Below are positions 24,861 to 39,304 of a DNA stretch of 64,000 bases, in pieces. The stretch is taken from assembly GCF_003330725.1 (NCBI RefSeq), contig NZ_CP030840.1, positions 5,642,001 to 5,706,000 on the forward strand, written 5' to 3'. Under the pieces are notes generated by a model, which did no database searches, was not told where the DNA came from, and saw only the letters and a list, made by a program, of their open reading frames with translations. Source of the DNA: Acidisarcina polymorpha (GTDB lineage: Bacteria; Acidobacteriota; Terriglobia; Terriglobales; Acidobacteriaceae). Within the stretch, counting starts at the first letter, position 1; the number at the start of each line of letters is the position of its first letter. The translations under genes and the position numbers were made by a program.

Positions 24861-26519
24861 TTAGTGGCGCGTGAACGCGTAGGCGTAGAGCAGGACTTCT
24901 AGACCCACCATTGTTGTCAACAGGATGCTGTGCCGTAAGGTAAAGCGAAACAACCTGGCCTGATCGGGAACCGACATCCCGGTTGCCGCTGCGGCAACGG
25001 CGATGGTTTGCAGGCTGATCATCTTGCCCATCACGCCGCCGGCCGAGTTCGCGGCCGCCATCAACAAGGGGTCGAATCCCAGACGACTGGCAGTCATGAC
25101 TTGCAGATTGCCGAAGAGGGCGTTCGCCGAGGTGTCGGAGCCAGTGAGGAATACGCCTAACCATCCAAGAAGCGGGCTGAAGAAGGGGAAGAGAGCGCCT
25201 GATCCGGCAAAAGCGAGCCCCAAGGTCGCCGTCGCTCCACAGTAATTCATCACGAAGGCCAGCGAGAGGACGCACGCAACCGTCACTGTCGGCAAAAACA
25301 GCTGCCTGATGACATCTCGAAGAATTCGTAGAAAGACCCGGAGCGACAATCTCACGAGCAAGACCGAGACCAGGGCCGCAAACATACAAGCCGTTCCCGC
25401 TGCCGATAGCCAGTTGACCTGATAGAGGGCGGCATAGTGGAGCGGCACGGCCACCACCGGCGGCATGCGCTGGACGACATTGTGCAGCCATGGCCACGGA
25501 AGGTTGATAGTCACCGAATTGAGCAGCCCTTGAACCGGCTTGAAACCCCATAACAGGACGAAGAGGACCAGCAGGGCATAAGGCATCCATGCGCTAAGGA
25601 CCTCGCCGGTGCGATATTTGCGCCGGTCCGCGTAGCTGGCGCTGCCCCGAAGCTCGACAAAAGCAGCAGCCGAGGGATCTCCCGCTTCCAACAGATGACG
25701 CGGCCGCCAGAACCGCAAGAGGACGAGAAGAGCCAGGATCGCGGAGAGCGAACTGACGATGTCCGTAAGCTGCGGGCTGACATAGTTCGACATCAGAAAT
25801 TGCACAACTCCGAAGACTCCGCCCGCGAGCGCCACCGCCGGCCAAACTTCCTGCATGCGCCGCCAGCCGACCATGGTCACGATCAGATATCCAGGGAGAA
25901 TCATTGACAATGGCGCACATAGTCGACCCACTGCCGCGCTCAACGGACCAAGCGGCAACCCGGTGATCCCGGCGAGGGTTACGACCGGAATGCCGATGGA
26001 ACCGAAGGCAACCGGTACGGTGTTCGCTAAAAGGCAAACCGCGGCGGCATAGAATGGGTTGAATCCAAAGCCGACCAACATCGCTGAAGCGACCGCCACT
26101 GGTGTCCCAAAACCCGTTGCGCCTTCTACGAAGGCGCCGAATGCAAAGGCGACCAGCAAAGCCTGCAAGCGTAGATCGGTAGTCAGGGAGCCTAGAGACG
26201 AATGGATGACCTCAAATCTGCCTGAAGCTACTGTGACCTGATAGAGCACGATCGCCCACAGTACGATCCACGAGATGGGGAAAAGTCCAAAGGCCGCGCC
26301 GTAGGCCGCCGCACTCAAGATCAATCGAGGTGGCATCTTGTAGCCGGCCGCCGCTAAAACGACAGTGATGCCTAACGCGCAAAGGGCCGCCAGCCAGGCA
26401 GGCTTGCGCTTCACGCCAAGCAAAAACAGCAACGTCACGATCGGCACGGAAGCGATCGCAGCAGAGAGCGGGAGCCCTTGACCGAGTAAGGTGTAGGTCT
26501 GTTGCCAGGATGAATTCAT
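24861..26519 (-). CDS. lldP: L-lactate permease family transporter
   Basis: 552 residues, hydrophobic throughout with about 13 or 14 membrane segments. Diagnostic phrases of the LctP/LldP family are present: FAFGAFVEGATGFGTPVAVA, LANTVPVAFGSIGIPVVTLA, and near the C-terminus LGWLGVFLTGSDTSANALFG and SAGGVMGKMISLQTIAVA. Members take up lactate or glycolate by proton symport across the inner membrane. Length matches E. coli LldP (about 551). No lactate dehydrogenase (lldD, lutABC) or regulator is adjacent, so the physiological substrate is not confirmed by context. The ATG is weakly supported by upstream sequence. Confidence 0.92.
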   Translation of the reverse strand: MNSSWQQTYTLLGQGLPLSAAIASVPIVTLLFLLGVKRKPAWLAALCALGITVVLAAAGYKMPPRLILSAAAYGAAFGLFPISWIVLWAIVLYQVTVASGRFEVIHSSLGSLTTDLRLQALLVAFAFGAFVEGATGFGTPVAVASAMLVGFGFNPFYAAAVCLLANTVPVAFGSIGIPVVTLAGITGLPLGPLSAAVGRLCAPLSMILPGYLIVTMVGWRRMQEVWPAVALAGGVFGVVQFLMSNYVSPQLTDIVSSLSAILALLVLLRFWRPRHLLEAGDPSAAAFVELRGSASYADRRKYRTGEVLSAWMPYALLVLFVLLWGFKPVQGLLNSVTINLPWPWLHNVVQRMPPVVAVPLHYAALYQVNWLSAAGTACMFAALVSVLLVRLSLRVFLRILRDVIRQLFLPTVTVACVLSLAFVMNYCGATATLGLAFAGSGALFPFFSPLLGWLGVFLTGSDTSANALFGNLQVMTASRLGFDPLLMAAANSAGGVMGKMISLQTIAVAAAATGMSVPDQARLFRFTLRHSILLTTMVGLEVLLYAYAFTRH

Positions 26520-27786: not shown

Positions 27787-28953
27787 CTAGCGCTTGGTCT
27801 TGCTCATGGGGACTACCTGGACAGTGACATCGCGTACTTCCGACAGAAAGCGGTTGAGCACCGAACCGCGCAGCAGGATGTCGAAACGGGAGCGGGCCGA
27901 TTGCCCGAAGACGACGTGCGAGATATTCTCTTGCTGGGCGAAGGCTATCAGAGCGTCGGCAACTCGCTTGCTCTTGAGCAGTATGGTCTTCGCGCCTAGA
28001 TCGCGGGCGAGTTTGAGATATTCCTCCATGCGCTCGAAGGCCTCTGGGTCGTTATGCTGGTTGTCCTTATTCGGAGGCTCAACGTAGACGGCATACCAGT
28101 TGGTTGCCAGGCGTCCGGCGATGCGGGCGCCCACCCTTAGCAGACGCTCGGTTCCTGCGCGTTCCGACAGGCAGACCATGACCTTCTCGGGCATGGGGGC
28201 CTGCTCGAGGCCCTGGGTTCGGCGGTATTCCGACGCTGCGGTCCCCACTTGCTCAGCGGTAGTGCGCAGGGCAAGTTCGCGGAGCATGTTGAGATTGCCC
28301 TTGCGAAAGAAGTTGGCGAGCGACTGCTCAATTTTCTCGGGCGCGTAGATCTTGCCCTGGCGCAAACGGTCGCGGAGTTCATCCACGGTGACGTCGACGT
28401 TCACGACCTCGTCAGCCCGTTTCAGCAGACTGTCGGGGACGGTTTCGCGGATGACGGTGCTGGCAGAGCGGGCGACGGCGTCGTTCAGGGTCTCGAGATG
28501 CTGAACATTGACGGCGGTCATGACGTTGATGCCCGCGTCGAGCAGTTCGAGGACGTCCTCATACCGTTTGCGATTCCGAGAGCCGGGCACGTTGGTGTGG
28601 GCCAGCTCGTCCACGATGACGGTATGCGGATGACGCTTCAGGATCGCATCGATGTCCATTTCGCGGAGCACCACCGAGCGATAAGGGATTTGTTTCTCGG
28701 GGATGATCTCCAGGTCATGGATCAATGCCGCGGTATCGGCGCGGCCATGAGTTTCAATGAGGCCGATCACAATGTCGACGCCCTGCTTGCGGAGCAGGTG
28801 CGCGGTTTCGAGCATCTGGTAGGTTTTGCCGACTCCGGGAGCGGCCCCGATATAAACACGTAGTTTAGCCCGTTCAGGCGGCGAGGTTTCGGGTGGATCG
28901 AGGATGAGCGGCTGCGGCTCTGGAGGCGACTGATCGGAACGTAGATCGGCCAT
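27787..28953 (-). CDS. KdpD N-terminal sensor plus universal-stress domain, no kinase
   Basis: 388 residues. Residues about 30-240 are the KdpD sensor domain: Walker A GAAPGVGKTYQMLETAHLL (from 36), GLIETHGRADTAAL, Walker B VIVDELAHTNVPGSRNRKRY, and AVNVQHLETLNDAV. Residues about 245-385 form a UspA-like domain (KVMVCLSERAGTERLLR, VVFGQSARSRFDILLRGSV). The four membrane helices, phosphoacceptor and ATPase domains of full KdpD (about 895 residues) are absent. In full KdpD this part senses potassium and c-di-AMP. It overlaps the end of the upstream kinase-like gene by one base (TAATG), so the two are co-translated and look like a KdpD split in two. No kdpE or kdpFABC occurs in the window, so a potassium role is not assured. 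Confidence 0.9.
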   Translation of the reverse strand: MADLRSDQSPPEPQPLILDPPETSPPERAKLRVYIGAAPGVGKTYQMLETAHLLRKQGVDIVIGLIETHGRADTAALIHDLEIIPEKQIPYRSVVLREMDIDAILKRHPHTVIVDELAHTNVPGSRNRKRYEDVLELLDAGINVMTAVNVQHLETLNDAVARSASTVIRETVPDSLLKRADEVVNVDVTVDELRDRLRQGKIYAPEKIEQSLANFFRKGNLNMLRELALRTTAEQVGTAASEYRRTQGLEQAPMPEKVMVCLSERAGTERLLRVGARIAGRLATNWYAVYVEPPNKDNQHNDPEAFERMEEYLKLARDLGAKTILLKSKRVADALIAFAQQENISHVVFGQSARSRFDILLRGSVLNRFLSEVRDVTVQVVPMSKTKR

Positions 28954-30779
28954 TAGCCCACCTCAACCGGATGACGGGACGCTTGGACGGTCGCCATGGG
29001 AACCGTAAAGCTAAAAGTCGTCCCTGACCCTAGCCGGCTCTCGACGGCGACCTGACCGCCCAGGGATTCGACAAGACGGCGAACTAATGCCAATCCGAGA
29101 CCGGTTCCTTCCCCGGTTCCGCCAGAGGTGTCGAAGCGGCCGAAGATCATAGGGAGCCTTTCAGTCTCGATGCCGCGTCCGGTGTCGCGCACAAAGAACT
29201 GGACGCGGTCCTTGATTTCCTCGGCGCGCAGCAGAATCGAACCGCCCGGGGGCGTGTAGCGAATCGCATTGCTGAGGAGATTGTCCAGAATGCTGCGCAA
29301 GGCGCGGCGGTCAGCATTCACATGAGACAGATCGGAGAAAGCCCGGATCTCGATCTCAATCTGCTTTGCCTGGGCCTCATCGATAAAGCGATCGTGAGCA
29401 TCCTGCAGGATGTCGAGAGGACGGAGGCGCTCAATCTTAAGCTCGCGGCGTCCGGTGTCGAGTTCGGCGACCTCGATCAGGTCGGCCATCAAGTCGTTGA
29501 GCGCTTCGGCTTCCTCTTCGGCGCCCTGAAGAAGGTCGGCCTGTAAGGGTTTTAATTCTCCACCGAATCCTTTGGAAAGGGTATAGAGGCTAAGACGAAT
29601 TCGCTGCAGCGGATCACGAAGTTTTTGCGAGGCGACGGAGATGAAGCGGGTCTTGAAGCGGTCGACCTCCTGCATCTGGGTTACGTCCTCGAGGACGGTG
29701 ACCGCCCCGAGCAGCTTGCCGTCCTCATCGCGCATGGGTGTGGTGCGCAGGCGATAGCTTCGCTGGGCCTCGCCGATCCGCATCGGAAGCAGCGCAGCCT
29801 CGCCTTCATTGGTTATGGCGCGCTGCATGGAGACGGCGTCGCGGACTGCTTTTAGAATCTTGTCGCCTCCGGGGGTGTTGGTGAGCGCCATGCGATCGCC
29901 GGCCACCTCGCCTAGCAGCTCGATGGCGGCCTGGTTGAGCTTGAGCAGCTGACCCTTGCCGTCGGTGACGATGATCGGTTCGAAGATGGACTGGAGCACG
30001 GCATCGCTAAGTTGATGCTCCATTTGGCGGCGTCCGCTTTCGGTTTCGCGCAGATCGCGCATGCGCACGGCCAGGCGGTTCACCTCGGTGGCGATGATGC
30101 CGAGATCGTCATGGGACCGCCATTCGATTCTTGCCTGCAGGTCCCCTTTGCCGATGAGTTGCGCGCTCTGCGCCACCTCATGCAGAGGCGCAATGACGCT
30201 ATAGACGATCAAAGGAGCGACGATCAGCGCCAGAAGCGAAGAGACTTCTACGACCGTGAGCATGTGGCGGCTGAGTAAAGTTCGTTCGCGGATGGCCGTC
30301 TGCTGCGCAGCGAGTTGCTTGGCGGATTGAGTGGCCATAAGTTGCTGCAGCCCCTGGTCGAGCGCGGCCAGACGGAGACGCAACTGGGAGGAGGCCATCG
30401 CCCGTAGCTGGTCAGGAGAGACGGCATGCCCAACCTGAGTGGACAGCCGGCTATGCTGTTGCTGAAAGGCGTTCAGCGATGGGTCAGCTACCAATAGAGC
30501 GGTCGCTTTGATCTGGCGCTCGGTCTGCTGCATTTGCGCCATGAGCGGGGCGACGGAGGTGGGGCCGGGCTCCGCTTCGAACTCGGCAGCCAACAGTTGT
30601 TCGCGGGCAAGCGCACTCTCGAGGCCAGTCAGCATCGCCGTTGCCTGATCGGCGCTCGACAGCATCACGTCCGTGGCCGCCACCCGGCGCAGGGAAGCTC
30701 GAACGAATAAAGTCATGCCGAAGACAATCACCAGCAGGACGAAGCAACCGAGGACCAGTCTTTGATAGAGGCTTAGCAT
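28953..30779 (-). CDS. HAMP/PAS sensor kinase-like protein lacking the phosphoacceptor histidine
   Basis: 608 residues: TM1 (about 7-27), periplasmic helical sensor, TM2 (about 173-195), HAMP (to about 250), PAS (about 258-365), dimerisation helix (about 375-445) and a complete ATPase core (about 480-600; NLLSNAIRYTPPGG, DTGRGI, FGRF, GTGLGLALV). The H box reads FISVASQKLRDPLQRI: the phosphorylated histidine of SHELRTPL is replaced by Q385, codon CAA at 29627-29625, and the following Glu by Lys. ATP binding looks intact, autophosphorylation at the usual site impossible. The gene is translationally fused to the KdpD-like sensor downstream. It may be a pseudokinase that scaffolds or allosterically controls another kinase, or may use another residue. 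Intact reading frame and clean domains argue against decay. Confidence 0.9.
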   Translation of the reverse strand: MLSLYQRLVLGCFVLLVIVFGMTLFVRASLRRVAATDVMLSSADQATAMLTGLESALAREQLLAAEFEAEPGPTSVAPLMAQMQQTERQIKATALLVADPSLNAFQQQHSRLSTQVGHAVSPDQLRAMASSQLRLRLAALDQGLQQLMATQSAKQLAAQQTAIRERTLLSRHMLTVVEVSSLLALIVAPLIVYSVIAPLHEVAQSAQLIGKGDLQARIEWRSHDDLGIIATEVNRLAVRMRDLRETESGRRQMEHQLSDAVLQSIFEPIIVTDGKGQLLKLNQAAIELLGEVAGDRMALTNTPGGDKILKAVRDAVSMQRAITNEGEAALLPMRIGEAQRSYRLRTTPMRDEDGKLLGAVTVLEDVTQMQEVDRFKTRFISVASQKLRDPLQRIRLSLYTLSKGFGGELKPLQADLLQGAEEEAEALNDLMADLIEVAELDTGRRELKIERLRPLDILQDAHDRFIDEAQAKQIEIEIRAFSDLSHVNADRRALRSILDNLLSNAIRYTPPGGSILLRAEEIKDRVQFFVRDTGRGIETERLPMIFGRFDTSGGTGEGTGLGLALVRRLVESLGGQVAVESRLGSGTTFSFTVPMATVQASRHPVEVG

Positions 30780-31704: not shown

Positions 31705-32901
31705 ATGATTCGCAATTTTCAGAATAGTGCTCTCAGGGGCAACCGGAACGGATTGGCTATCGGCAGACTGACTGCGGTTGTAATCGTCTTTTTGGCCTGG
31801 ATGTGCGCGTATGGAACCGCGAGCGCGCAAAGATGGTCGGAAAAAAAAGCCAATGCCTGGTATGCACGGCAACCGTGGCTGGTTGGGGCCAATTATGTTC
31901 CGTCCGATGCGATCAACCAGCTGGAAATGTTCCAGGCTGAGACCTTTAATCCTGCGCTGAACGACAAGGAGCTGGCGCTGGGCGAAAGCATCGGGATGAA
32001 TACGATGCGGGTCTTTCTCCAGGACCAGCTGTGGGCGCAGGACCCGAAGGGTTTTACTCAACGGCTCGATCAGTTTCTGGCGATCGCGGCCAGGCACCAT
32101 ATCCGGCCCTTGCTGGTGTTGTTCGACTCTTGCTGGGAGCCCGACCCGAAGCTAGGCCCGCAGCATCCGCCCATTCCCGGGGTGCACAACTCTGGTTGGG
32201 TGCAGAGTCCCGGGGCGAAGGGTATTTCGGATCCGGCCTATGAGCCAAAACTGAAGTCCTACGTGGAAGGGGTGGTGGGGGCATTTGCGAACGACGAACG
32301 AGTGCTCGGCTGGGATATTTGGAATGAACCCGATAACGGGAACGGGGCCCGGTTTGCGTCGCAGGAAGCCAAGCACAAGGCAGAGCTGGTAGCGGTTTTG
32401 CTGCCGAAGGCGTTTGCCTGGGCGCGGGAGGCTCATCCGATCCAACCGCTCACCAGTGGGGTGTGGACCGGAGACTGGGTGCATCCAGACCAGGAGAGCC
32501 CGATGACGAAGATTCAGCTGGCGGAGTCGGACATTATTACGTTTCACAACTATGAGTGGCCGGAGGGCTTCGAGGCGCGGGTGAAACAACTGCAGGCTTA
32601 TCATCGACCCATCATCTGCACGGAATACATGGCGCGCGGCGCCGGCAGCACCTTCGACAATACGCTCCCGCTGGCAAAAAAATACAACGTAGGAGCGATC
32701 AACTGGGGACTGGTCGCGGGCAAAACCCAGACCTACTATCCCTGGGATTCATGGCAACATCCGTATGTGCTGGAGCAGCCGACGGTTTGGTTCCATGAGG
32801 TCTTCCGCCAGGACTGGACGCCTTACCGGGAGCATGAAGTCGAGCTGATCCACGAACTGACCGGCAGGGGGACTTTGCAAGCTTCCTCTATTGGGCAATA
32901 G
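31705..32901 (+). CDS. Exported GH5-like (beta/alpha)8 glycoside hydrolase
   Basis: 398 residues with an N-terminal signal segment (about 20-42, ending GTASAQ). The fold is a clan GH-A barrel: GANYVPSDAINQLEMFQ, SIGMNTMRVFLQDQLW, RPLLVLFDSCW, then the acid/base glutamate E208 in GWDIWNEPDN at the end of strand 4 and the nucleophile E307 in PIICTEYMARG at the end of strand 7. Proteins of this kind are often labelled xylanase or cellulase without biochemical proof; the exact polysaccharide is unknown. It lies 58 bases before the propeller/phosphoesterase gene on the same strand, and co-transcription is possible. Confidence 0.85.
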   Translation: MIRNFQNSALRGNRNGLAIGRLTAVVIVFLAWMCAYGTASAQRWSEKKANAWYARQPWLVGANYVPSDAINQLEMFQAETFNPALNDKELALGESIGMNTMRVFLQDQLWAQDPKGFTQRLDQFLAIAARHHIRPLLVLFDSCWEPDPKLGPQHPPIPGVHNSGWVQSPGAKGISDPAYEPKLKSYVEGVVGAFANDERVLGWDIWNEPDNGNGARFASQEAKHKAELVAVLLPKAFAWAREAHPIQPLTSGVWTGDWVHPDQESPMTKIQLAESDIITFHNYEWPEGFEARVKQLQAYHRPIICTEYMARGAGSTFDNTLPLAKKYNVGAINWGLVAGKTQTYYPWDSWQHPYVLEQPTVWFHEVFRQDWTPYREHEVELIHELTGRGTLQASSIGQ

Positions 32902-32959
32902 AAGCCGATGGTGCGACACTGGAGTCGATAGTCAAGCCTGGACTCTGGAGAGTTTTTTC

Positions 32960-35881
32960 ATGCAACGAACTGGCGTGCTTGGAAGCGCCCTCACCCTGGT
33001 GTGTCTGACCATAAGCCTGTCCTTCTTCAACACGCTGGCCGCCGCTGGCCAGATGTCGGGCGGCTTCAATTCGGGACAATCGCAGATTCTGTCGACCAAC
33101 CAGACGATAACGCCGCTTGCGCCGCGAGGAGCGAGCTTTCAAGCGCTGAATCCGGGAGTTCGCGAGGTACCGCAGTACACGGCTGGCCAGGCGGTTACCA
33201 CCGTCGTCAGCCCGGATAAGAAGACGCTGCTCATCCTAACGAGTGGCTTTAATCTCTGGAGTTATACCGAGGGCGCGAACGCGGGCAAAAAGAACCCGGC
33301 AGCTTCGAGCGAGTGGGTCTTCGTCTTCGACATCAGCGGTCCCGCACCGGCACAGAAACAGGCCATCCCGGTCCCTAATACTTATAGCGGCATCGCCTTC
33401 AATCCGAATGGGGAAGAGTTCTATGTGGCGGGCGGGTGCGACGATAACGTTCATATATTTTCGACAGCGGATGGTGGATGGAGCGAGAAGCTACCCGCGG
33501 TGGCGCTTGGCCATCTGGCCAGGGCCAAGAAGGCGGAGGGGAATTTTGGCGGGATCGGCATAGAGACACAACCGGAGGCTGCCGGGTTGGCGGTATCGGC
33601 GGATGGTAAAACCATTGCCGTTGCGAATTACGAAAATGACTCGATCAGCATTCTTTCCAGGAGCGATGCGGGCTGGAGCAAGGCGAGTGAACTGGACCTG
33701 CGTCCGGGAGTGATCGATCCTCGAAAAAGCCGCGGAATCGCGGGAGGAGAATATCCCTTCTGGGTACAGATTAAGGGGAACGATACTGCCTATGTCTCGA
33801 GTATTCGCGACCGAGAAATCGATGTAGTTTCCTTGAAGGGTGCTCCGGCGTTGACGACGCGAATCAAGCTCCCCGGTCAACCGAATAAGTCCATTTTGAA
33901 CAAGGAACAGACGGAGCTCTTCGTAGCGCAGGATAACAGCGACTCCGTAGCCGTGATCGATACGGTCACGAACAAGGTGGTGGAGAACATTCGGGTTACT
34001 GCTCCGCTGGACGCCTACCCCAATGCGGAACACTATCGCGGCGCCAACCCCAACAGCGTTGCGCTCTCGCCGGATGAACGCACGCTATATGTCACCAATG
34101 GCGGAGAGAATGCCATTGCAGTTGTCAGGTTGAATCAGACAGCAGGGAAGAGTGTTGTCGGAGGGTTGATTCCGACGGGCTTCTATCCTAATTTGCTGAG
34201 CACCAGCGCCGATGGTGAGACCCTCTACATCGTCAATGGAAAAAGCGCGACTGGACCGAATCCTGCGAATTGCCATCCTATCAGCGCTCGGCAGAAGATC
34301 GACTGCCGCGCAGTTAACCAATATACGTGGCAATTAACCAAGGCGGGATTCCAGACGGTGCGAACTCCTACGGATCCGGAGTTGAGTTCTCTGACGCGGA
34401 CCGTCCTGGTGGATAACAACCATATGGTTCAACCGTCGCTTACCGATCAACAGAAAGAGACGCTGGCTGTTCTTCGGGAGAAGATACACCACGTTATTTA
34501 CATCATTAAAGAGAACCGCACGTATGACCAGGTCCTTGGCGACCTGGCGATCGGCAATGGCGATCCCAAGCTGACCCAGTTTCCACAGCAAGATAGTCCC
34601 AACTTTCATGCGTTCGCGAGTAAGTTCGTTGATTTCGATAACTTCTATGACGCCTCTGATGTTAGTGGCGATGGATGGCCGTGGTCGACGGCCGCGCGTA
34701 CCACAGACACCGTCGAGAAAGAAACGCCAGTCGGCTACGCAGGGCGGGGAGTCGATAATGATGTAGAGGGCACGAACCGCAATCTAAATATCGGGATTGG
34801 AGATATCAAAGAGCGCGCTGCAGCGAATCCACTAGGCGGCAGCGACCCAAACATTCTCCCCGGAACTCGCGATGTCGCCGCTCCGGATAGTGATGACGAT
34901 GAGGAAGGGCAGGGGTTTCTCTGGAACGGCGCTCTCAAGGCGGGGTTGAGCCTGCGCAACTATGGCTTCTTCGTGGACCTCGCCCGCTACAATCTTCCGG
35001 CAGCGCAAAAGAAGTACGAGATAGCAGAAGAGCCTGATCCATTCGGACGCAACTTACAGGTTGCCTACTCGACTAACTCTGTTTTGCAGAAGTACAGCGA
35101 TAAGTACTTTCGTGGATTCGACAACTCCTTTCCCGATTACTACCGTTTCACAGAATGGAGGCGCGAGTTCACTCAATACGAAAAAAGCGGGAAACTCCCG
35201 AACCTCTCGTTCGTGCGCCTGATGCATGACCACTTTGGCGAGTTCTCTTCGGCAATCCAGGGAGTCAACACTCCGGAGCTGCAGATGGCCGATAACGATT
35301 ATGCGGTCGGTTTACTAGTCGAGACGATCGCGCATAGCCGGTTCAAGGACGATACATTGATTTTTGTGATCGAAGATGACGCGCAGGATGGCGGGGACCA
35401 TGTCGACGCGCACCGCAGCACTGCGTTCATCGTCGGACCGTATGTTAAGCGAGGCTTTGTGGACTCGACGCGCTATAACACCGTGAGCATGCTTCGGACG
35501 ATGGAAGATATCTTGAAGATCAAGCCTTTGAATCTTAACGATGCCCATGCGATGCCGATGCTCGACGCCTTCGATCTGAACCAGAAGGAGTGGGATTACA
35601 CGGCGGAGCCATCGGCATACCTCGCCAGGACCTCGTTGCCGATCGATCACACAAGGTTTTCGAAGGCGGCGCTCCTCGATCCACCCACTTCGCTGCACGA
35701 TGCGAGCTGGTGGGCGGAGAGGACGAGAGGAATGGATTTTAGGGTCGAAGATCATCTCGATACGGCCAAGTTCAATCAGATTCTGTGGGAAGGGACGATG
35801 GGAGACAGGTCGTATCCGGCGACCCGTTCGGGCGATGACCTTCGGGCGAATCGTTTGCGGATACAGGAGGTCGCTCGTTGA
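32960..35881 (+). CDS. Exported YncE-like beta-propeller fused to a phosphoesterase
   Basis: 973 residues from the ATG at 32960, preceded by GGAGAG and followed by a signal peptide (MQRTGVLGSALTLVCL onward). An upstream in-frame TTG at 32891 would overlap the previous gene and bury the signal peptide. Residues about 60-470 form a YVTN/YncE-type propeller with repeated blades (for example SPDKKTLLILTSG, LSPDERTLYVTNGGENAIAV). Residues about 490-860 are an alkaline-phosphatase-superfamily phosphoesterase of the phospholipase C/acid phosphatase kind: IYIIKENRTYDQVLGD, DNFYDASDVSGDGWPW, FVIEDDAQDGGDHVDAHRST. It should act in the periplasm or outside on phosphate esters; the propeller may bind substrate or surface. 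Fusions of this type recur in Acidobacteriota. The exact substrate is unknown. Confidence 0.88.
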   Translation: MQRTGVLGSALTLVCLTISLSFFNTLAAAGQMSGGFNSGQSQILSTNQTITPLAPRGASFQALNPGVREVPQYTAGQAVTTVVSPDKKTLLILTSGFNLWSYTEGANAGKKNPAASSEWVFVFDISGPAPAQKQAIPVPNTYSGIAFNPNGEEFYVAGGCDDNVHIFSTADGGWSEKLPAVALGHLARAKKAEGNFGGIGIETQPEAAGLAVSADGKTIAVANYENDSISILSRSDAGWSKASELDLRPGVIDPRKSRGIAGGEYPFWVQIKGNDTAYVSSIRDREIDVVSLKGAPALTTRIKLPGQPNKSILNKEQTELFVAQDNSDSVAVIDTVTNKVVENIRVTAPLDAYPNAEHYRGANPNSVALSPDERTLYVTNGGENAIAVVRLNQTAGKSVVGGLIPTGFYPNLLSTSADGETLYIVNGKSATGPNPANCHPISARQKIDCRAVNQYTWQLTKAGFQTVRTPTDPELSSLTRTVLVDNNHMVQPSLTDQQKETLAVLREKIHHVIYIIKENRTYDQVLGDLAIGNGDPKLTQFPQQDSPNFHAFASKFVDFDNFYDASDVSGDGWPWSTAARTTDTVEKETPVGYAGRGVDNDVEGTNRNLNIGIGDIKERAAANPLGGSDPNILPGTRDVAAPDSDDDEEGQGFLWNGALKAGLSLRNYGFFVDLARYNLPAAQKKYEIAEEPDPFGRNLQVAYSTNSVLQKYSDKYFRGFDNSFPDYYRFTEWRREFTQYEKSGKLPNLSFVRLMHDHFGEFSSAIQGVNTPELQMADNDYAVGLLVETIAHSRFKDDTLIFVIEDDAQDGGDHVDAHRSTAFIVGPYVKRGFVDSTRYNTVSMLRTMEDILKIKPLNLNDAHAMPMLDAFDLNQKEWDYTAEPSAYLARTSLPIDHTRFSKAALLDPPTSLHDASWWAERTRGMDFRVEDHLDTAKFNQILWEGTMGDRSYPATRSGDDLRANRLRIQEVAR

Positions 35882-35929
35882 ACTCGTCGCGTTTTGCGCC
35901 CGAGATGCAGCAACGGGCATCCTATAGGC

Positions 35930-36598
35930 ATGGATTCCAAGGCTTTTCTCCGAATGCTGGCAGTGTTCGCCCTCCTCTTCTGTCTGGTTCCATTGCCTTG
36001 CTCATTCGGGCAAAGTCCTCAACAGCAGCGCCCCACCAGCACACCGTATAGCGGAGACCTGTCTATTTTTGAGGCACCCGGCCGCGATGAGCGGCTGCAG
36101 ATTCAGCGGGTGATGGACTTGCTTGGGATCAGACATGGATCGACAGTGGCCGACCTGGGCGCAGGTTCGGGATGGTTCACGGTGCGGGCCGCGGCGCGGG
36201 TAGGGCGCAGCGGAACGGTCTACGCTGAGGACATCAACCCGGCGGCGATCCAGTACATCGACCAGCGGCTCCAGAAAGAGAAGATCAACAACGTGCGGAC
36301 GGTTCTGGGAACTCCGGATGATCCTAAGCTGCCCACGAATTCGATCGACGCGCTGTTGATGCTGAAGGTGTATCACGAGATCGCCCATCCAGAGGTCCTG
36401 CTCGCGCGTTTGACGCCGTCGCTAAAGCCGGGCGCAAAGATCGGAATCATCGACCGGAATGGCAGTGGCACTGACCACGGGCTGAACAGCGATGTGGTCA
36501 AGCGGGAGATGGCCTCGGCCGGTTTTGAGCTGGTGGCCTCATACGATTTCACCAAGGCCGATGGACAGGACTATTTCCTGATTTTTCAACGAAGGTGA
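35930..36598 (+). CDS. Methyltransferase-fold protein with a signal peptide
   Basis: 222 residues from the ATG at 35930; an upstream in-frame start at 35894 would place 12 charged residues before the signal sequence. The N-terminus (RMLAVFALLFCLVPLPCSFG, cleavage near Q30) is a typical Sec signal peptide. The rest is a class I methyltransferase: motif I STVADLGAGSGWFTVRAAAR, acidic residue in VYAEDINPAAIQYID, and LLMLKVYHEIAHPEVLLARL. SAM is normally cytoplasmic, so an exported SAM-dependent enzyme is unexpected; it could bind another ligand, act before export, or be membrane-tethered by an uncleaved helix. Similar signal-bearing proteins occur in other Gram-negative genomes. It follows the phosphoesterase gene by 48 bases. 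Confidence 0.85.
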   Translation: MDSKAFLRMLAVFALLFCLVPLPCSFGQSPQQQRPTSTPYSGDLSIFEAPGRDERLQIQRVMDLLGIRHGSTVADLGAGSGWFTVRAAARVGRSGTVYAEDINPAAIQYIDQRLQKEKINNVRTVLGTPDDPKLPTNSIDALLMLKVYHEIAHPEVLLARLTPSLKPGAKIGIIDRNGSGTDHGLNSDVVKREMASAGFELVASYDFTKADGQDYFLIFQRR

Positions 36599-36775: not shown

Positions 36776-37224
36776 ATGAGCGGGGCAAGCATACTTCTGG
36801 TTGAAGACGACTTAAATGTTTTCCATAGCATTCAGCGCAAGTTGAAGGCCCACCACTATGAAACGTTCTATGCGCCGGACGCGGTAGCCAGTATTGCGCA
36901 AGCGCGGCTGCATCGACCGAGCATCATCCTGCTGGATCTGGGATTGCCAGCTGGAGACGGTTTTGTGGTGATGGAGCGTTTGAAGCAGATTCCGATCTAT
37001 CGGATATTCCGGTGATTGTCCTGTCCGGGCGGGATCGGGGCGCCAACGAGTTGAGAGCTATGCGCGCTGGAGCCGCGGCCTTTCTGCAGAAGCCGGTCAA
37101 TGGCGACGTGCTGCTCCAGACCATCGGCAGTTGTCTTGCCAGGCCAGAGGCCCGAGTCGTTCAGAACACTTACAGCGTAAGCGCTCAACCCAGCAAGGCG
37201 GAGACTTTCGCCTTCGGCAAGTAG
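36776..37224 (+). pseudogene. Response regulator receiver, frameshifted
   Basis: The first 79 codons encode the front half of a receiver: ILLVEDDLNVFHSIQRKL with the acidic pair, and the phosphoacceptor aspartate in IILLDLGLPAGDG. The frame then stops at 37015. The missing back half continues one base earlier in phase: DIPVIVLSGRD from 37003, then MRAGAAAFLQKPVNGDVLL with the conserved lysine, to a stop at 37224. Restoring one base near 36994 gives a continuous product of about 149 residues. GGAGG precedes the ATG. The stop is 5 bases before the kinase at 37230, so the intact gene would be the receiver partner in a three-gene operon. Either a real inactivating deletion or a sequence error. 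Confidence 0.85.
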
Positions 37225-37229
37225 GCGCG

Positions 37230-38093
37230 ATGGCAAACAGCGGGCTAGCGGAAGAGCAGTTGCGGCAGAGCCACAAGATGGAGGCCATTGGGCAACTGGC
37301 AGCCGGAATTGCGCACGAGATCAACACGCCGATTCAATACGTCAGCGACAATAGCGTTTTTTTGCGCGAGTCCTGGACGGTGATCAACCGGATTGTTTCG
37401 GTTGCTGCGAAGGTGCAGGATGAGTGGCGGCGAGGTGCTCTCTCGACAAGCACGAGAGACGAATTGGACAGCTGTTTTCGGGCGGCGGATATTGACTATC
37501 TCGCCAACGAAATTCCGCGGGCGATCGATGAAACCTTTGAAGGGGCGCGGCAGGTAGCGAAGATCGTCCGCGCGATGAATGAATTTGCCCATCCTGCGAG
37601 CGAGAACAAATGTGCTTGCGATCTCAACCAGGCGATCGAGAATACGATCGCATTTTCGCGCAATGTCTGGAAATATGTGGCCCGGGTAGAGACCTCGTTG
37701 GACCGGGAAGCGCCTCTGGTCCTGTGCCGCCTGGATGAGATCAACCAGGTGCTGTTGAACCTCATCGTCAATGCCGCGCATGCAGTCGGCTCGTCGAATG
37801 AAAACGGTCTGCAGGGACTAGGTACGATCCGCGTTAGAACGACCTTCGCCGATGGGTGGATCACGATCAGCGTAAGCGATGACGGAGGCGGTGTTCCCGA
37901 AGACGTGCGATCGAGGATATTCGAGCCCTTCTTCACCACCAAACCGCTCGGGTCGGGGACGGGCCAGGGATTAGCGATGGCCCGGGTCATCGTCGAGGAG
38001 CAGCATGGCGGGCGGATCTGGCTCGAGAGCACGGCGGGTACAGGCACGACCTTCTATGTCAGCTTGCCGGTGGATCCGGAGATTCCGGCCTGA
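37230..38093 (+). CDS. Cytoplasmic sensor histidine kinase
   Basis: 287 residues without membrane segments or a recognisable sensor domain. A phosphoacceptor helix begins near the N-terminus (LRQSHKMEAIGQLAAGIAHE) with H29 followed by INTPIQYVSDN, and an ATPase core follows (N box LLNLIVNAAHAV, SDDGGGVP, FEPFFTTK, GTGQGLAMA). This compact NtrB/ZraS-like form usually takes its signal from an attached or partner receiver. Upstream is a frameshifted receiver (5 bases away) and downstream a receiver-HDOD gene (1 base away), so the three form a tight operon. The ATG at 37230 has only a weak ribosome site; longer frames starting at 37131 overlap the receiver and are less likely. Confidence 0.9.
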   Translation: MANSGLAEEQLRQSHKMEAIGQLAAGIAHEINTPIQYVSDNSVFLRESWTVINRIVSVAAKVQDEWRRGALSTSTRDELDSCFRAADIDYLANEIPRAIDETFEGARQVAKIVRAMNEFAHPASENKCACDLNQAIENTIAFSRNVWKYVARVETSLDREAPLVLCRLDEINQVLLNLIVNAAHAVGSSNENGLQGLGTIRVRTTFADGWITISVSDDGGGVPEDVRSRIFEPFFTTKPLGSGTGQGLAMARVIVEEQHGGRIWLESTAGTGTTFYVSLPVDPEIPA

Positions 38094-38094
38094 C

Positions 38095-39304
38095 ATGATG
38101 AAGAAACTGCTGCTGGTCGATGATGAGCCTCTGGTGCTGACCGGACTGCAGCGCAGCTTGCATTCCATGCTCAACGAATGGACGATGGTGTTAGCCGGAA
38201 GCGGGGATGAAGCTTTGGCTGCCATGGAAAAGGGGTCCTTCGATGTCATTGTGACCGACATGCGCATGCCACGTATGGACGGCGCAGTGCTGCTCAAAGA
38301 GGTGCGCCGGCGTTCGCCGCAGACGGTACGGATTGCGCTGTCTGGGCAATGCGACCGCGGCACAATCATGAGCGCGATCGATTCGACCCATCAGTACCTC
38401 TCGAAGCCATGCGACGTCCGGCAGTTGAAAGATACCATTCAACATGCACTTGAGCTGAGGAGGCAACTGGAGAGCTCAAGCCTTACGAAAGTAGTCAGTC
38501 AGTTGAAGAATATCCCCAGTCTTCCGTCTTCCTACCAGGCCATGCTTGAGGAAGTGGCGCGAAACGAACCAAGGCTTGGCAGACTGGCAGCGCTCGTTTC
38601 GGCCGACATGGGCATGACAGCCAAGTGCCTGCAACTCGTCAACTCGGCGTTTTTCGGGCTACGCTCCCAGGTATCGAACCCCTTGCAGGCATTAAGTTTA
38701 TTGGGGCTGGATCGGCTAAAATCCCTGATCTTTTCAAGTCACATCTTTTCCGAGTTCAAGACGGACCTCTTCGACAAACAAGAGATGGCATGGCTGTGGG
38801 AGCACAGTTTCGCGGTGAGTGTAGGGGCGCATAACATCGCAGAGATGCTGCATCAGCCTCCGACCGGGATCGACAATGCGGGAACGGCCGGCCTGCTGCA
38901 CGCAACCGGAAAACTGGTGCTGGCCTCGTGCATGGGCAAGGAATACAAGATGGCGCTCGAGATGGCGGCCGGAACCGGGATCAGCCTGGCGGAGGCGGAA
39001 CGCGAGGTGATCGGCTGCGGCCATGCCCAGGTGGGAGCCTCGCTGCTGGGCATCTGGGGGCTAGGACGCCATCGTCGAAGCGGTCGCGTGGCATGAGATT
39101 CCGAGCACGGCGTCCAGCGGCGCCACACCATCGCTCACCGCCGTCCATGTGGCGTGCGCTCAGCATGGAAGGCTCTGTCCGTCGAGGCTCTCCGGAGGGC
39201 ATTCGATCGACCACGAATATTTGCAAGCTGCGGGTTTAGCGGGTCAGGAACAGCGTCTGCTCGAGGCGTGCGGCTCTTCGTTGCGGTCCTCGCTCAGCAA
39301 TTGA
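38095..39304 (+). pseudogene. Response regulator with HDOD output domain, frameshifted near the 3' end
   Basis: Receiver domain first (about 1-120): LLLVDDEPLVLTGLQ, phosphoacceptor in VIVTDMRMPRMDGA, lysine in YLSKPCDVRQLK. An HDOD domain follows (from about 140): IPSLPSSYQAMLEEV, MTAKCLQLVNSAFFGLRSQV, GLLHATGKLVLAS. HDOD proteins are HD-fold signalling proteins, mostly without the catalytic HD pair. The frame as sequenced runs off into GRHRRSGRVA and stops at 39096, but the expected HDOD continuation DAIVEAVAWHEIP resumes in the next phase at 39065 and stays open to a stop at 39304. One extra base, or loss of two, near 39063-39066 explains this; the two-base version restores the common motif WGLPDAIVEAV. 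Corrected length is about 402 residues. Confidence 0.87.

Follow-up and report, generated by a model that had tools for sequence, protein, structure and literature searches.

The locus and its genes

This analysis concerns two adjoining genes in a 64,000-nucleotide stretch of the Acidisarcina polymorpha genome (contig NZ_CP030840.1, positions 5,642,001 to 5,706,000 of the forward strand; hereafter the window). One encodes a sensor kinase in which glutamine stands where the phosphoacceptor histidine belongs; the other, KdpN, encodes a stand-alone KdpD N-domain protein, and its start codon overlaps the kinase stop by one base (TAATG). The kinase gene is a real pseudo-histidine kinase that is found lineage-wide. 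Table 1 lists the features discussed.

The protein has two hydrophobic transmembrane (TM) stretches at its N-terminal end, and Pfam places HAMP at residues 191-241, PAS at 265-368, HisKA at 376-443 and HATPase_c at 490-596. It thus combines the HisKA and HATPase_c domains of a sensor histidine kinase with the absence of the phosphoacceptor histidine, and the HisKA match still passes (31.8 bits, cut-off 26.9). The architecture of a full-length KdpD (KdpD and DUF4118/DHpCA in one chain) is absent, as Pfam finds no DUF4118 in the protein at E ≤ 0.001. The region between the TM stretches is predicted, with low confidence, to be helical. Among 10 N-termini inspected, four (G008 at locus L086, G240, G064 and G206; the loci also include L192, L193 and L217) have a short loop there, and in these genomes the sensor part is apparently dispensable while HAMP-PAS-DHp-CA stays.

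The initial annotation had described a degenerate H box, with a Gln codon in place of His and a lysine after it, and complete ATPase motifs N, G1, F and G2. Direct reading of the codon bears out the former (the longer string is VASQKLRDPL), and all four boxes are indeed complete in the window protein.

Table 1. Coordinates of the features in the window
Feature	Position	Strand	Length or residues	Basis or remark
Pseudo-histidine kinase gene	28953..30779	-	608 aa	Open reading frame and Pfam domains
Degenerate H box ASQKLRDPL	29607..29633	-	Residues 383-391	Q385, K386, D389
Q385 codon CAA	29627-29625	-		Direct read of the DNA
Conserved C-terminal tail HPVEVG	28956..28973	-	Residues 603-608	Family alignment
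KdpN, stand-alone KdpD N-domain and Usp protein	27787..28953	-	388 aa	Open reading frame and Pfam
KdpN Walker A-like motif GAAPGVGKT	28822..28848	-		Alignment
HATPase_c gene, then receiver-HDOD gene	37131-39096	+		Two-component-like pair, 6-8 kb from the pseudokinase
Lactate permease gene LctP	24861-26519	-		Near the pair
Cellulase-like, lactonase/phosphoesterase and methyltransferase genes in a row	31705-36598	+		Ordinary metabolism as far as seen

Loss of the histidine and maintenance of the ATP site

In a sample of 398 genomes of the family, 95 hold a match to the pseudokinase at E ≤ 1e-60; they belong to 16 of the 79 genera sampled. Residues were compared over 91 sequences, namely 89 family carriers (window included) and two from another family of the same class, G434 and G427. 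Six of the 95 carriers stand outside this count (G218, G220, G264, G272, G288 and G406, five of them partial matches), and 90 of the 91 sequences can be read at position 385, G021 ending at a contig edge before the H box.

None of these 90 sequences has His at position 385. Arg is commonest (45), followed by Gln (28), Glu (5), Lys (3), Gly, Asp, Ser and Ala (2 each) and Leu (1). The next position, normally Glu, is Lys in 86 and Arg in 4. Thr is the usual residue at position 389, four residues past the phosphoacceptor; here it is replaced in all but 4 sequences (D66, G7, E7, T4, Q2, N2 and 2 others). A383 and P390 do not vary. G370 and G376 read AGRKL where others have ASRKL, and the G185 gene carries a TAG upstream of the HAMP region.

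The absence of His is therefore fixed in the family and class set, and Gln is not. The check that had been suggested, fixation of Gln in homologues coupled to a KdpD N-domain gene, fails as worded (28 of 90) and succeeds for the loss of His. Homologues with His at this site had been named as what would mark the Gln as a private mutation or a sequence error. Such homologues do exist outside the set, 34-37% identical and with receiver genes adjoining, but their complete absence inside it rules out both explanations. A genome-contig scan with the window protein beyond the Acidobacteriota sample gave seven loci: six that were already counted (G164, G238, G250, G140, G064 and G122) and one distant His kinase (24%).

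The ATP site has been kept. N500, N504, D532, G534, G536, F546 and G562 have a frequency of 1.00 over 90 rows, and the site does not vary in family members with about 50-70% identity to the window protein; isolated lapses next to these residues occur at D499 (Glu or Tyr in G124 and G233, Gly in the contig-cut G021) and G560 (Ala in G304 and G336). Median pairwise ratios of nonsynonymous to synonymous change (dN/dS), computed on pairs that show moderate synonymous change and share ancestry, are 0.21 for PAS, 0.30 for DHp and 0.24 for CA. Among the four domains compared, conservation is highest in PAS (mean commonest residue 0.825). The protein thus shows what defines a pseudo-histidine kinase: a lost His, retained ATP boxes and purifying selection. 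Of the two possibilities that the initial annotation had named, a signalling pseudokinase is well supported by the clade-wide absence of His, the conserved ATP site and the dN/dS of 0.2-0.3. The other, a substitute phosphoacceptor at that site, is disfavoured, since position 385 drifts among nine residues (R, Q, E, K, G, D, S, A and L); an acceptor relocated to H603 is taken up with the rival explanations.

A conserved C-terminal tail

After a variable linker, the last six residues read HPVE[V/A/I]G, with H in 88, P in 78, E in 89 and the last G in 89 of 89 family rows. This conserved tail appears as a feature new in this analysis. Its codons for H, P, V and G vary synonymously, so the constraint lies at least partly on the protein; the GAG codon is kept in 85 of 89 and may double as a ribosome site for KdpN. 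H603 is the sole His among the positions conserved to at least 97% from residue 185 (HAMP) to the C-terminus. The tail was not found in 12 outer relatives read, comprising five pseudokinases (G926, G703, G434, G427 and G954) and seven His kinases. Six KdpN positions are constant (at least 97%) in the 89 tail-bearing genomes and different in eight tail-less relatives, which may be mere descent, as the tail group is one clade. Two KdpN residues diagnostic for the tail-bearing genomes, R245 and R308, are candidates for contact with the pseudokinase.

The constant partner KdpN

KdpN follows the pseudokinase in all 91 loci, 89 of them by the strict rule; G172 and G403 differ only in a called start too far upstream. 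The closest NCBIfam model, KdpD_non_kinase, is matched below its cut-off (420 versus 550 bits). According to the sections of PMC11018627 drawn on here, the KdpD N-domain of Escherichia coli phosphorylates KdpB at S162 as an atypical serine kinase, and K+ stimulation of this activity was observed in styrene-maleic acid lipid particles (SMALPs). The paper names the serine-kinase residues of KdpD and classifies the KdpD chains of 5495 species, separate serine- and His-kinase chains being commonest in Acidobacteriota and Chloroflexota.

None of the residues in question (G36, K37, T38, D109, E110 and R190) varies among the 91 family and class partners or the 3 others compared. Position 39 is aromatic in all 94 (Y79, F14, W1), with Tyr in the window where E. 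coli has W39. KdpN consequently carries the complete signature of the atypical serine kinase, G-X5-GKT, D109/E110, R190 and an aromatic residue 39.

In a KdpN tree of 62 rows, the 34 pseudokinase-linked and three of four His-kinase-linked sequences form one group (100), with DUF4118-linked sequences apart, and KdpN and kinase types seem to be inherited together. The KdpN of the G021 pair is sister to that of G379 (99) and nearest to genus g9. G021 (L090) also keeps a kdp-linked KdpN, which suggests that its pseudokinase-KdpN pair was acquired by transfer, although the contig is short and contamination is possible. As a side observation, two KdpD N-domain genes lie close together on one contig in G039-G042, G045-G048, G053 and G030; the first is the weaker, mostly partial match, possibly a degenerate second KdpN. 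In G051 a second, weaker KdpD N-domain gene lies on a different contig.

Outer relatives and the origin of the loss

A search of the phylum with the G434 protein covered 396 genomes and gave matches in 35, of which five weak ones without a locus (G759, G836, G850, G825 and G914) fall outside the reading. Of the 26 rows read outside the family (G434 and G427 included), 20 have His, five lack it and one is cut. The His-less rows carry Ser (G926), Asn (G703), Gln (G954) or Gly (G434 and G427). The nearest His-bearing group in the tree consists of G764, G1034, G928 and G900, G1034 having two kinase copies of which the second also bears His. Here a receiver gene directly follows the kinase, and the four loci long enough to show it also contain kdpABC and KdpN. 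Aligned over 416-475 residues, these kinases show 34-37% identity to the window protein; their identity to the G434 pseudokinase is about 40%. The His-less G926 and G703 proteins share 41-43% with the window protein.

In G434, G427, G703 and G926 the His-less kinase lies between kdpC and KdpN, directly after kdpABC. In the first three, a DUF4118-type kinase and KdpE then follow, and that kinase reads SHDLRTPL in G434. The order in G954 is KdpN and then kinase, with no response regulator after the kinase.

A kinase tree of 69 rows, built without the H-box columns, unites 47 His-less rows in one clade (SH-like approximate likelihood ratio test, SH-aLRT, 100) and sets G954 (Gln) apart. A single origin is not rejected (approximately unbiased test, p-AU 0.662), and the tree constrained to it was 8.19 log units better. 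His would thus have been lost once or twice; two independent losses, which the free tree might suggest by its placing of G954, are not established.

Cyclic di-AMP as a possible input

No diadenylate cyclase (PF02457), as control by cyclic di-AMP (c-di-AMP) would call for, was found in the window genome (G000) or in 94 of the 95 carriers. Because the cyclase is missing there, c-di-AMP is an unlikely input to KdpN in the carriers, barring an unrecognised synthase. The cyclase occurs in one of 95 carriers, whereas among the other 303 family genomes 142 have it, one of them by a weak match; it is also present in the outer pseudokinase genomes G434, G926 and G954.

We dropped the idea that this pattern independently marks the pseudokinase as a replacement for c-di-AMP, since shared ancestry can explain it. 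When 31 family genomes are placed on a tree by RpoB, six cyclase-less carriers fall in one clade with four cyclase-less non-carriers, and neither of two independent pairs differs in the cyclase. One outgroup row, G055, is clearly something other than RpoB (branch length 10), and the tree lacks the carrier G002 as well as G007, G009, G020, G024 and G036, which gave no RpoB hit.

The Usp motif was likewise discarded as a c-di-AMP sorter. For short KdpD proteins, the sections of PMC8214093 drawn on here give the motif (A/G/C)XSXSX2N(Y/F), set for Firmicutes. This Firmicutes-derived motif is absent from KdpN, which reads CLSERAGT in the window. At the place of its second Ser the 91 KdpN have Arg (87), His (2) or Ser (2), and Ser stands there in 0 of 3 others and 2 of 27 comparison KdpN. 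The two sequences with Ser among the 91 are those of G434 (which has the cyclase) and G427, where the remaining motif is absent.

The kdp genes and response regulators

The window genome has KdpN only beside the pseudokinase. Its KdpD-C kinase, with an intact His (THELRTPL), lies at C1:6323940-6325406, and KdpE, kdpA, kdpB and kdpC lie within 6332875-6338383, KdpE and kdpA 7-9 kb past the kinase. All of these are about 0.65 Mb from the pseudokinase. As KdpN sits away from kdp, there is no linkage here between the serine kinase and the pump, unlike in most relatives: of 17 family members that have KdpN and kdpA without the pseudokinase, 15 carry the two within about 8 kb on one contig (exceptions G027 and G029). 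Among the 37 family members compared, kdpA is present in seven of the eight pseudokinase genomes, G019 having the pair without kdpA. KdpB of the window genome matches that of E. coli K-12 exactly at the serine target motif, VDESAITGESAPVIRE.

None of the 91 loci (73 with full flanks) shows a receiver-domain gene closer than 1.5 kb to the pair, the usual though not universal sign of a cognate regulator; as a positive control, the same search finds such genes further off in six of these stretches. The nearest receiver gene in the window encodes an HDOD regulator (38005-39096) with its own HATPase gene adjoining.

A proposed mechanism and its rivals

We propose, with a probability of roughly one half, that the pair is a split and re-purposed KdpD, in which the pseudokinase, a membrane sensor that would bind ATP, controls the serine kinase and through it transporters at the post-translational level. 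The pseudokinase would no longer carry out phosphotransfer and would act as a membrane-anchored HAMP-PAS sensor, whose conformation, and perhaps ATP occupancy, would switch KdpN on or off. KdpN in turn would phosphorylate a transporter and may act on others too. Homology points to the TGES serine of KdpB, whose phosphorylation would shut the K+ pump. Transcription of kdp would be left to the separate His-bearing KdpD-C kinase and KdpE. This proposal builds on the missing His and Glu, the intact ATP site, the constant pairing, the intact serine-kinase site, the conserved KdpB motif and, in the window genome, the intact His of the KdpD-C kinase; we infer ATP binding, the physical interaction, the direction of control, the substrate and the signal. 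In its favour are also the lack of a receiver gene near the pair, where the nearest His-bearing kinases have one, and the place of the His-less kinase and KdpN right behind kdpABC in G434, G427, G703 and G926. Published work supports the logic: in E. coli KdpD, the H673A substitution or deletion of DHp-CA leaves KdpB phosphorylation intact (PMC11018627), so the serine-kinase arm is independent of the His. A fuller version, which we offer tentatively and at somewhat less than an even chance, has a two-component sensor turned into a phosphotransfer-free serine-kinase controller, running from the sensor through docking of the pseudokinase via its HPVEVG tail to KdpN and on to the transporter, with no recognisable c-di-AMP synthase.

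Several points weigh against a split, re-purposed KdpD. The E. coli findings can also be read the other way, since a serine kinase that works without DHp-CA may leave the pseudokinase the role of a modulator or scaffold only. The 27 comparison KdpN without a pseudokinase also keep G36, K37, T38, D109, E110 and R190. Judged by these alignments, the intact serine-kinase site is a general KdpN trait, not special to the pair and untouched by the neighbour's loss of His. The Usp domain alone might control KdpN. No kdpA or kdpB was found in the flanks (up to about 10 kb, some short) of 89 family loci and, with G019 lacking kdpA, KdpB is therefore not the sole substrate in every carrier. Moreover, dN/dS is somewhat higher in DHp than in the ATP domain (0.30 vs 0.24), and the AlphaFold model of the pseudokinase, from 7 sequences, is of low confidence (predicted local distance difference test, pLDDT, 62.5; predicted template modelling score, pTM, 0.33).

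The pseudokinase could instead work as DivL does, binding a response regulator (KdpE or another) or pairing with a live His kinase to tune its pathway in trans, with KdpN as a separate or additional partner. DivL is a known pseudo-histidine kinase (Tyr for His, other boxes kept) that reads DivK~P (PMC4211667, in the part drawn on here), and a DivL chain, 4q20, is the second-best PDB hit of the pseudokinase. A live candidate is at hand as well, with a KdpD-C-like kinase in 20 of 26 chosen genomes (E ≤ 1e-60; His checked only in G000) and, by context, in G434, G427 and G703 (His read in G434). We nevertheless regard this as rather unlikely, considering the lack of a receiver gene within 1.5 kb in the 91 loci, the constant pairing with KdpN instead of a receiver and the additional changes of the Glu and Thr of the H box.

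Improbable, too, is a pure scaffold that anchors KdpN at the membrane without any switching, ATP binding being a fold-stabilising leftover. The short inter-TM loops of G008, G240, G064 and G206, hardly periplasmic sensors, fit such a role, whereas the retention of HAMP and PAS, the latter the most conserved domain, speaks against it. We hold it very improbable that the ATP domain phosphorylates the tail residue H603 in place of the DHp His, which would be the boldest form of the fuller version given above. Intact ATP motifs and the singular conservation of H603 (88 of 89 family tails) would permit this, but the tail, with its invariant final Gly, resembles a docking peptide more closely, five pseudokinases lack it altogether and some of its codons possibly serve as the KdpN ribosome site. 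Finally, the degenerate H box might mark a decaying gene heading for loss, a notion with next to no chance given that 95 of the 398 family genomes, from 16 of 79 genera, carry the gene, and given the reading of 90 of 91 sequences through the H box (the other cut by a contig end), the dN/dS of 0.2-0.3 and an ATP site still invariant at about 50-70% identity.

Neighbouring genes

In the fetched stretches of the 91 loci, the neighbours include a DUF6798-like gene (58), a CLC chloride-channel gene (30) and a TPR gene (24), almost always on the upstream side and with the same orientation. We treat these as leads to further substrates, not as evidence, and none of them occurs in the window over the 20 kb that entered the comparison. 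The DUF6798-like gene (L083, L086, L088, L142, L146 and others) encodes about 500 aa, is a weak match in the four checked and has two copies in some genomes. The flanking genes in the window are a divergent glycine-transporter-family gene and an esterase-like gene.

Separately, 23 of the 91 orthologous loci (L081, L084, L141 and L145 among them) have larE upstream and divergent of the pair, together with larC in 22 and larB in 16. These were named by similarity to a nickel-insertion, an NAD-synthase-like and an aminoimidazole ribonucleotide (AIR)-carboxylase-like protein, and we take them to serve lactate racemase maturation.

Comparison with known systems

To our knowledge, few two-component pseudokinases are known. 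A literature search, at the level of titles and abstract openings, found no published His-less kinase paired with KdpD. In the parts of the sources drawn on here, a ChrS variant (PMC9491836) and RocA (PMC7028121) are likewise sensor kinases described as pseudokinases; they belong to two-component systems (ChrSA/HrrSA and CovRS), with no KdpD link apparent. DivL of Caulobacter (PMC4211667, as far as drawn on) resembles the window protein in its replaced His (Tyr in DivL), its retained N, G1, F and G2 boxes, its PAS sensor and its output by interaction. Its partners are DivK and CckA, whereas the constant neighbour here is a KdpD-type serine kinase, and we claim no direct kinship.

The split KdpD, as presented in the cited sections of PMC11018627, shares the stand-alone KdpD/Usp chain and the intact serine-kinase residues. 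The known partner chain, however, is of the TM/GAF/DHpCA type; here its place is taken by a HAMP-PAS kinase that lacks both DUF4118 and the phosphoacceptor His, the KdpD-C-type kinase being found elsewhere or further down. The pair makes it testable how a stand-alone KdpD serine kinase is controlled where a c-di-AMP synthase is absent.

Also comparable are the KdpN-histidine kinase-response regulator operons of G764, G1034 and G928 (L253-L256), with a HAMP-PAS-type kinase, alignable for most of its length, next to kdpABC. They include KdpN as well; that of G928 lies further down and belongs to a different KdpN type. Unlike the pseudokinase loci, they have kept SHELRTPL and the receiver gene. 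Phosphotransfer has thus been lost on a wide scale with both ends preserved: a His kinase with its response regulator on one side, and a His-less kinase with an invariant serine-kinase partner on the other.

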